Shown piece after piece: positions 27,358 through 29,932 of a stretch of 64,000 bases of DNA (positions within the stretch are counted from its first letter, which is position 1; each line of letters opens with the position of its first letter). This DNA is from Homalodisca vitripennis. Its lineage: Eukaryota > Arthropoda > Insecta > Hemiptera > Cicadellidae. Location of the stretch: positions 29,741-93,740 of the forward strand of contig NW_025777537.1 in NCBI RefSeq assembly GCF_021130785.1, in the 5' to 3' direction. Under the pieces are notes generated by a model. It had not been told where the DNA came from, did no database searches, and saw nothing but the letters and a program-made list of their open reading frames with translations. The translations under genes and the position numbers were made by a program.

Positions 27358-27436
27358 TAAACTGAAGGAGAACCAGTTGATGAGAATACAGGCAGGTGAT
27401 CCGGTCTCTCGGTACTTTGGACTCAAGAGAGGACAG
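27358..27436 (+). CDS. Rpb5: Rpb5 exon 6a (canonical version)
   Basis: A 79-nt exon after TTTCACAG and before GTCAGTATG. It completes the tyrosine codon of exon 5 with T and encodes KLKENQLMRIQAGDPVSRYF then GLKRGQ, the heart of the RPABC1 C-terminal assembly domain. The LMRIQAGDPV wording is that of the usual insect protein. It ends in phase 0, as exon 7 requires. A second version of this exon lies 2.4 kb downstream. Using both in series would shift the frame and reach a TAG within exon 6b. Confidence 0.93.
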
Positions 27437-29853
27437 GTCAGTATGTAGACTGTACTCAAGATGTTCAAAATATCTGCCATCCATTGCTAGTTTTGTGAAC
27501 AATTCCAGACGAAACTTCTAAGTTAACCATGTCTTATGTACCGTACTCAAAATATTGAAGGAAACCTTCCAACTGTAAATTTTGAAATAGTATTTCACAC
27601 TCCTCCTAATCATCTTTGTTTTTCATAATTAGAACGAAAACAAAAACTCAACAATTTTAGCGCTCATCATAAGTTTCAAATTTATATTTTGCCTCATTAT
27701 TTAAGACACAAATTAAAATTTGAAACATTAAAGTCAATACTGATATTTAAACATTTTGAAAAATATTAAAACTAAGTGAAAAGTGCTGAGTATAATTGCA
27801 AATACTCTTAACCTCTTCAAGTTGTGAAGAAAAATTTTGAATGTGTAATTTCAATTCAATTGGAATAGAAAAATGTATCTTTATTGTACTTGAGTATTAT
27901 TAGTAAAGTTAATTGTGATCACTTACGTGTAATTTTTTATTTTACGATAGTAAGTCTTACAGATATATTTGCAAATGCTCTTTATAGAAATAGTGTTTAT
28001 GGGTATAAGTGATGTGTTGAATTCAAATCCTCAACAAAGAATTGGATTCAAGAATTGATGTACAAGATTCGATAGTTAAGTCTCGAACCTGTGAGACTTA
28101 ATTATTGGGCATAAGTCATTTTCATGTTCTATCACTCCCACTCTGGCAACATGGTGGTAGGTGAAATCTTCCTTATGCCAAACTAGTAAACAATGAATCA
28201 TAAACCATGTTATTTTGTAAATAACTTTTTCTTAAATTTAGTATTTTTTATATTTATATTTGAGCGTCGTGTGTCTGCTGCGTCTATCCACAAATGATAG
28301 CTGATTGGCGTTACGGAAATCACAGATTGCTAAAATTTGTTTTTTATACTTTGTTTAGCCACCTTTACTTAATTACAGCTAAGTCTATATGGCAGACATA
28401 ACGTACGATGTTAAAATTAAGTTTTAGTTGATAAAATCGCCCAACGCTTGTTAGTTACAAATAGAATAGAGATAACTCCATTTAAGGAAATATTTTTTGC
28501 AGATATATTAGTCTAATGCTTGTGAAAGGTTAAGATAACGAGTAAAGGACATACCACCTTTAAGAAACATTAACCCCCAACACATAGGTTGAACTCAAGT
28601 TTTTTTGTTGTTATGGATTTCATATCAAGATAGACACAAGTACAGATGGCTCTTAAGACCTATAACCAGTACATACCTGAGGGTAGGTTGAAAAGTATGT
28701 GCAAACCCATGGAGGAGGTAACATTGTGTGCATGCATTTATTTCATAAAGGGTAATACTTATTACCAATAAGGAGTTGTCACTTCATGTTTTTCACTATT
28801 TTAAATGATTTAAGTAAAGTGATTTCCTGATATTCATATGATATTTCCTATGGAAGGATCATAGTTGTTTCAGTTCTTTAAGTCTAAATGATTATTATCT
28901 GTGAATGAAACATTTAATCTTTGCTAAACATCTGAAACCAAATATCAGGCTAAAGACTGACTGGGTTTTAGAGAAGAAATTTATGAGATAAAGCAGATTG
29001 TTTTTTCAATTGAGGTTTGTCAAGACTGTTTTTGAGAATGTCAAAAGTATCTTCTCTGAGTATTTTGGAAAAGCCAAAATTATTATAAGTGCTGTTTTGT
29101 ATCTTTATTGGACTCACTAAGAAAATCTTGAGGAAAAATCCCATAGTTGATCCACAAAAAAGTAAAAATACTAGGAGATTTTCATGAAGATTTTACCAAA
29201 TTGTACAAGATCGAGTTCCAATATTACATCACCATCTCTTCCCCTATTCTCAAGATTTGTTTTTCTCAGATTACCAATTTTGGTTAGGAAGAGATGTCAG
29301 TCAAACAAGGGTGAAATTGGTGAAATAAATGTATATTTTCAGACCAATCATATTATCTGGAATGGACATAGAAATCTAAAACAGCATTTAAGAGTACCGG
29401 TAGTAGTTGACATTTAAAAATAAACATACAACATCCCAAAATATTACCTACTTCTCATTATTACTCTAGGTTTTAAACAACTGTTGTATGAAACATCATA
29501 ATTATGCTTGTTTTAAATGTTTTGTATTTTCTATATTTCAATAGCTGAGATGACTTGTATTTTGAAAATCAGGTTCAGTTTACTGGCTGAATTAAAAAAT
29601 TTAATCATTATTACTGCTTCATTTCTTATCAAGTTGCATTTAGTGGAGTGTGGTAATGTTAAAAACATAACATTAGTGTTTCTTCAATATTAGCTGTATT
29701 TTGACCAATATCAGCACATTTCTCTATATCCCATATGATTGGTTAACTGTAAATCCTCTGTAAGTTTATTTTGGTTTGAATGTATTTTGTAAGAAATTGA
29801 CACATTAAAAACACTTGTTTATGATTTATTCGTGTGGTTCCTTAATATTGCAG
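27437..29853. other. intron between exons 6a and 6b
   Basis: About 2.4 kb of AT-rich sequence. No gene or recognisable transposon. Elements that regulate exon choice would be expected here, but I cannot identify them by eye. Confidence 0.5.
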
Positions 29854-29932
29854 CAATCTGAAAGAGAACAATTTGCCAAGAATTCAAACTGGCGATCCAA
29901 TTTGCCGTTATTTTGGGCTACGTAGGGGGCAG
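29854..29932 (+). CDS. Rpb5: Rpb5 exon 6b (duplicated alternative exon)
   Basis: A second 79-nt exon with its own acceptor (TTAATATTGCAG) and donor (GTAACT). It encodes NLKENNLPRIQTGDPICRYF then GLRRGQ. Compared with exon 6a, 19 of 26 residues are identical and most replacements are conservative. By my count 27 of 79 bases differ, many at third positions. Start and end phases equal those of 6a, so either exon joins exon 5 to exon 7 in frame. There is no stop or frame damage. The pattern indicates an old duplication kept by selection and used as a mutually exclusive exon. Confidence 0.9.

Follow-up and report, generated by a model that had tools for sequence, protein, structure and literature searches.

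Duplicated exon 6 of the Rpb5 gene in Homalodisca vitripennis: a second copy in insects of three orders, likely used as a strict alternative through U12-type and U2-type splice signals

Can an insect build its RNA polymerases (Pol) with two versions of one core subunit? RPB5 is an essential subunit of each of the three nuclear RNA polymerases, and one animal is normally assumed to have a single form of it. The question is raised by a stretch of 64,000 nucleotides (nt) from the hemipteran Homalodisca vitripennis (NCBI RefSeq contig NW_025777537.1, positions 29,741 to 93,740 of the forward strand), referred to as the window in the following, which carries most of the Rpb5 gene (RPABC1/POLR2E) on its plus strand, namely exons 2 to 5, 6a, 6b and 7. 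Exons 6a and 6b are adjoining homologous exons of equal phase which encode the same stretch of the C-terminal assembly domain, and an earlier note on this DNA had proposed that they are mutually exclusive. We conclude, with a probability of roughly 0.83, that exon 6 was duplicated, that insects of three orders possess the second copy and that the two copies are likely strict alternatives kept apart by U12-type and U2-type signals. The exons were located by tblastn with an RPB5 sequence as bait and their ends were set from the splice sites. The features around the pair are as follows (a slash marks the exon boundary):

18558..18697, plus strand: Rpb5 exon 5, ending in phase 2 (..TA/)
18698..18706, plus strand: exon 5 donor, a U12-type 5' splice site GTATCCTTT, common to 6a and 6b
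27339..27347, plus strand: U12-type branch site of 6a, TGCCTTAAC, branch A 11 nt from the 3' splice site
27358..27436, plus strand: exon 6a, 79 nt, encoding KLKENQLMRIQAGDPVSRYFGLKRGQ; U2-type donor CAG/gtcagt
29838..29846, plus strand: U12-type branch site of 6b, TTCCTTAAT, branch A 8 nt from the 3' splice site
29854..29932, plus strand: exon 6b, 79 nt, encoding NLKENNLPRIQTGDPICRYFGLRRGQ; U2-type donor CAG/gtaact
38791..38856, plus strand: Rpb5 exon 7 with the stop codon TAA; U2-type acceptor (ttgttacag) lacking CCTTRAY

The boundaries given in the earlier note (exon 5 ending at 18697, 6a from 27358 to 27436, 6b from 29854 to 29932, exon 7 beginning at 38791) all hold, and both 79-nt exons possess, as it had claimed, an AG acceptor and a GT donor of their own in the same phase. 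The reading frame leaves little freedom in their use. Exon 5 joined to 6a and 7, and likewise exon 5 joined to 6b and 7, is open as far as the normal stop. If 6a and 6b are spliced together, the predicted frameshift does occur and a TAG is reached inside 6b; if both are skipped, a TAG follows directly after exon 5. The full C terminus is therefore obtained only with one exon or the other. A role of 6b as a poison exon was considered as well and ruled out by the open frame of the 5-6b-7 form.

A recount of the differences between the two exons gave the same values as claimed before, 27 of 79 bases different and 19 of 26 residues alike. Within the 26 codons, 18 differences fall on third, five on first and three on second positions; the 27th is the first exon base, which completes a split Tyr codon. 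The proportion of differing sites is 0.875 for synonymous (pS) and 0.18 for nonsynonymous sites (pN), and with the synonymous sites saturated the synonymous divergence (dS) is not computable. In a neutral simulation with 27 random substitutions, a stop arose in 13153 of 20000 runs, and not one run remained free of stops with at least 19 of the 26 residues preserved. Saturated synonymous sites combined with few changed residues speak for selection at the protein level. The proposal of an old duplication under such selection is borne out by this pattern and by the presence of 6b in three more insects, described below.

What would keep the two exons apart is indicated by the splice signals, to which the earlier note had not referred: the intron before the pair carries U12-type signals and the intron after it U2-type signals, and exclusive splicing is likely for this reason. 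The exon 5 donor GTATCCTTT, which we take to be a perfect U12-type 5' splice site according to the U12 consensus, occurs a single time in the 64 kilobases (kb), both strands counted, exactly at the end of exon 5. The alternative U12 donor form ATATCCTTT occurs twice, on the minus strand at 48581 and 9168, and at no Rpb5 exon end. Judged from base composition, the chance of the donor heptamer after a GT is 1.2e-4. The branch motif CCTTRAY was found near the AG of two out of seven acceptors, those of 6a and 6b alone, with a chance of 0.0037 per acceptor (base composition, about 15 start positions), and TTCCTTAAY occurs once in the whole window, before 6b. A U2-type appearance is shared by the exon 7 acceptor and the donors of exons 2, 3, 4, 6a and 6b. 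On these signals intron 5 would be of the minor type, a single donor facing two acceptors, and intron 6 of the major type, two donors facing a single acceptor. A weak polypyrimidine tract was tried as a further sign of U12 type and rejected, as the fractions for 6a and 6b (0.65 and 0.60) lie within the range of the other five acceptors (0.45-0.70). An Rfam scan of the window returned no match at gathering scores, and hence no minor-spliceosome RNA was seen there. In a passage on mouse genes with an affected U12 intron Polr2e is included (PMC7312986), and a minor intron in the RPB5 gene may therefore be ancestral.

Sites of U2 type and U12 type are generally incompatible, as stated in a passage of a review (PMC3584512). 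In the mechanism proposed here, the minor spliceosome would use the single U12 donor after exon 5 with one of two U12 acceptors, that of 6a or that of 6b, and splicing of the selected exon to exon 7 would fall to the major spliceosome. For a 6a-6b product a U2 donor would have to be paired with a U12 acceptor, a combination which neither spliceosome is expected to manage, so that double inclusion would be blocked. A product that escaped with both exons, or with neither, would meet an early stop and is predicted to be degraded. The predicted result is two RPB5 proteins, with which Pol I, II and III would each exist in two forms, probably depending on tissue or stage. The earlier claim of an exclusive choice is thus upheld on two grounds, the reading frame and the predicted incompatibility of U12 and U2 sites.

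Exclusivity might also be brought about by competing RNA structures or by repressors, with the U12 signals inherited and incidental. Competing structures with selector sequences are used by a number of genes with exclusive exons, according to a passage of PMC6071210, and the choice of exon must in any case depend on additional regulators. Against this, the U12/U2 incompatibility is already enough for exclusion, and introns 5 and 6 hold 120 inverted repeats, of which the 25 listed are all one AT microsatellite at 31.6 kb. We regard this explanation as unlikely. Steric exclusion is likewise unlikely because 2417 nt separate 6a and 6b. Exclusion through U12/U2 incompatibility remains the preferred explanation.

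Is the second copy a peculiarity of this one insect? Three protein searches were evaluated: one with the full-length 6b form, of which the best 120 of 2578 matches were examined, and two scored on the exon-6 region, of which 35 of 35 and the best 120 of 267 matches were examined. The pooled set comprises 219 distinct listed proteins, and the exon-6 stretch is present in 218. Three of the 219 are of the 6b type (at least 23 of 26 residues), and the next best reach 21 of 26. P0004, named "Rpb5 isoform X2", from the planthopper Lycorma delicatula (Hemiptera) matches 6b at 25 of 26 residues, P0121, "RPABC1 isoform X2", from the katydid Anabrus simplex (Orthoptera) at 24, and P0002 from the dragonfly Ladona fulva (Odonata) at 23, the latter with 6a followed by 6b within one gene model. 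A designation such as 'isoform X2' usually goes back to a prediction supported by RNA sequencing (RNA-seq). These three carriers are a lower bound, as the protein database was clustered at 90% identity and 6b forms can hide behind 6a representatives. The highest identity among the matches listed was 96%, to Lycorma, with a query that included three residues supplied from relatives. Absence or decay of 6b in relatives, which the earlier note had considered, was not what we found in Lycorma, Anabrus and Ladona, where 6b is nearly identical.

Compared pairwise, the four 6b sequences have 22-25 of 26 residues in common, against 18-20 when they are set beside four insect 6a sequences; N1, P8, T12, I16 and R23 are present in all four of the 6b type. 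In a tree of the exon-6 stretch with 24 sequences these four form one group (ultrafast bootstrap 97), with the dragonfly branching first, then the katydid, then the planthopper together with the window. Forcing the 6b sequences of the window and Ladona onto their own 6a gave a tree with a log-likelihood (lnL) worse by 14.6. A single 6a/6b duplication before the split of dragonflies and Neoptera appears most likely from these comparisons, and independent duplications in each species less likely. Residue 8 hints at the age of the pair: of the 14 arthropod-type 6a rows among the 24 sequences, 13 have M and one, the barnacle, has P, and P is also present in all six non-arthropod and all four 6b rows. 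The arthropod M at this position could have arisen after the duplication, or P could have been regained there.

The Ladona gene model also bears on the splice signals. The 16 residues between its 6a and 6b, FRVKVVAKQTSLTILS, would be a read-through of the sequence just before 6b. A U12 branch site, TCCTTAAC plus any base, would be translated as the SLT of this linker and would place its branch A 10 nt away from the splice site; such an SLT-type match arises in 1.3% of random tails (2628/200000). The protein model in this way hints at a U12-type acceptor for 6b in the dragonfly as well.

Several observations weigh against the reading of 6a and 6b as a conserved and exclusive pair. First, the splicing of either exon at this locus is predicted from the sequence. 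The branch-to-splice-site distance of 6b is short for a U12 site, 8 nt compared with the usual 10-15 nt or so. The residues shared by the 6b sequences all occur in the non-6b protein P0140 as well (marine transcriptome, 19 of 26 residues overall), and four of the five occur in P0151, P0211 and P0218, counted over the 219 listed proteins; since P0140 has all five, the combination can arise independently and does not prove common descent by itself. The tree with separate duplications is not rejected at the 5% level on these 26 columns (p = 0.079 in the approximately unbiased (AU) test, p = 0.0998 in the Kishino-Hasegawa (KH) test). Moreover, 216 of the 219 listed RPB5 proteins are without 6b, for which an undercount and a real absence elsewhere are equally possible. 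This last count would also fit a 6b that is an old duplicate no longer used, or a functionless by-product of splicing. Such an exon would hardly be expected to retain an intact frame, U12 branch site and pair of splice sites, to combine saturated synonymous sites with few replacements, and to recur nearly unchanged in three other insects, twice in records named isoform X2, and we consider disuse of 6b very improbable.

The remaining point against a functional pair concerns the gene as a whole. Its further exons in the window are:

1112..1200, plus strand: Rpb5 exon 2; U2-type donor gtcagt
6569..6630, plus strand: Rpb5 exon 3; U2-type donor CAACAG/gttagt
8778..8918, plus strand: Rpb5 exon 4; U2-type donor gtgtgt; as assembled, one base out of frame with exon 3

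Joined at their canonical splice sites, exons 3 and 4 are one base out of frame (8778-8800, near a T run), so that the Rpb5 copy in the window may be damaged. Together with exon 1, which was not found within the 64-kb window, this could indicate a decaying second copy of Rpb5 with the working gene elsewhere; neither the break nor the missing exon 1 had figured in the earlier note. Exons 2, 3, 5, 6a, 6b and 7 are open, however, and their splice sites intact, and a T run is a usual place for assembly errors. An assembly error is probably the likeliest explanation of the break, which hits the 6a and 6b forms equally, and exon 1 probably lies upstream of the window. A decaying copy is hence judged highly unlikely, and we retain the reading of 6a and 6b as a real, conserved pair in a core polymerase subunit which, as far as can be predicted from its sequence, is very likely mutually exclusive. 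Within the introns of the gene we further observed a 44-base-pair minisatellite of 3.5 copies (intron 4, 12655-12810) and two long mariner-type transposase frames on the minus strand (introns 4 and 5, 16962-18044 and 25117-26205; Transposase_1, HTH_48).

What would the exchange alter in the protein? Exon 6 aligns to residues 169-194 of yeast Rpb5 (numbering from the 1dzf alignment). The C-terminal module of the yeast protein, residues 143-215, binds a helix bundle of the largest subunit in Pol I, II and III, according to a passage of PMC6690254. The 6a and 6b proteins differ at seven of the 26 residues of this part of the assembly domain. Among 215 RPB5 proteins, N1 of 6b is found in 5, P8 in 128, T12 in 17, I16 in 15 and R23 in 39, and N6 and C17 in none. 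In an alignment of 31 RPB5 proteins, which includes two 6b carriers, seven columns of the exon-6 stretch are invariant, and the 6b of the window keeps all seven. The 6b-type protein P0004 has both RPB5 domains (PF03871 with 118.6 bits, PF01191 with 116.8 bits), and the C-terminal half of the window protein with 6b matches solved RPB5 chains, the best with an E value of 1.7e-49. The 6b form would be likely to fold and assemble, with a modified surface or interface.

If true, a deeply conserved splice choice within the assembly domain would mean that insects can alter their core transcription machinery, and that this ability is tied to the minor spliceosome. A wider reading, to which we give somewhat less than even odds, is that winged insects inherited a minor-spliceosome switch of a 26-residue block in the common subunit of Pol I, II and III and thereby equip some cells with a distinct set of polymerases; the switch would be older than the dragonfly split and, as P8 of 6b hints, possibly older than the arthropod-type 6a. 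Two questions are opened by this: are there specialised core polymerases in animals, and could two acceptors turn a minor intron into a two-way switch between proteins?

Elsewhere in the window, inspection of the open reading frame list by eye revealed two sets on opposite strands (42516-48086, minus; 57801-62536, plus) with several nearly identical reading frames, which have the look of one large element, mobile or virus-like, present more than once. In the first set, the frames at 43123-43701 and 45259-45594 gave no Pfam match. At 49280-49936 on the plus strand a protein with a BRO-family N-terminal domain and DUF3627 is encoded, a pairing known from large DNA viruses.

With regard to known systems, RPB5 versions of trypanosomatids and plants are separate genes, whereas in the case described here one gene would yield both by splicing. 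As described in a passage of PMC6690254, these organisms, with RPB5 and RPB5z in trypanosomatids and the RPB5 versions of Pol IV and V in plants, likewise have more than one RPB5. Mouse Polr2e is likewise an RPB5 gene with a minor intron; the passage concerned mentions no alternative acceptor exon (PMC7312986). In the open-access literature on Rpb5/POLR2E/RPABC1, minor introns and exclusive exons we found no report of an Rpb5 isoform of this kind, and the main text of a study of exclusive exons in 15 insects is without the terms 'Rpb5', 'RNA polymerase' and 'U12' (PMC3303723). Since annotation has already produced 6b in two isoform X2 records, the exon is apparently undescribed rather than unseen. 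Among the closest known systems are the JNK genes MAPK8/9 with their exons 6a/6b (7a/7b), as presented in a passage of PMC3584512. There, two U12 donors face two U2 acceptors and the product is a kinase, whereas Rpb5 combines one U12 donor with two U12 acceptors, and two U2 donors with one U2 acceptor, and encodes a subunit common to the RNA polymerases. The same principle of exclusion, U2/U12 incompatibility, was given for five cases in a set of 629 human clusters of mutually exclusive exons; that survey concerns human genes and not an insect pair as here, and POLR2E does not appear in its main text (PMC5740500). Exclusion by U12/U2 incompatibility is thus already known, and the Rpb5 pair is set apart from the earlier cases by its gene, by how deep its conservation reaches and by a U12 layout of one donor with two acceptors.
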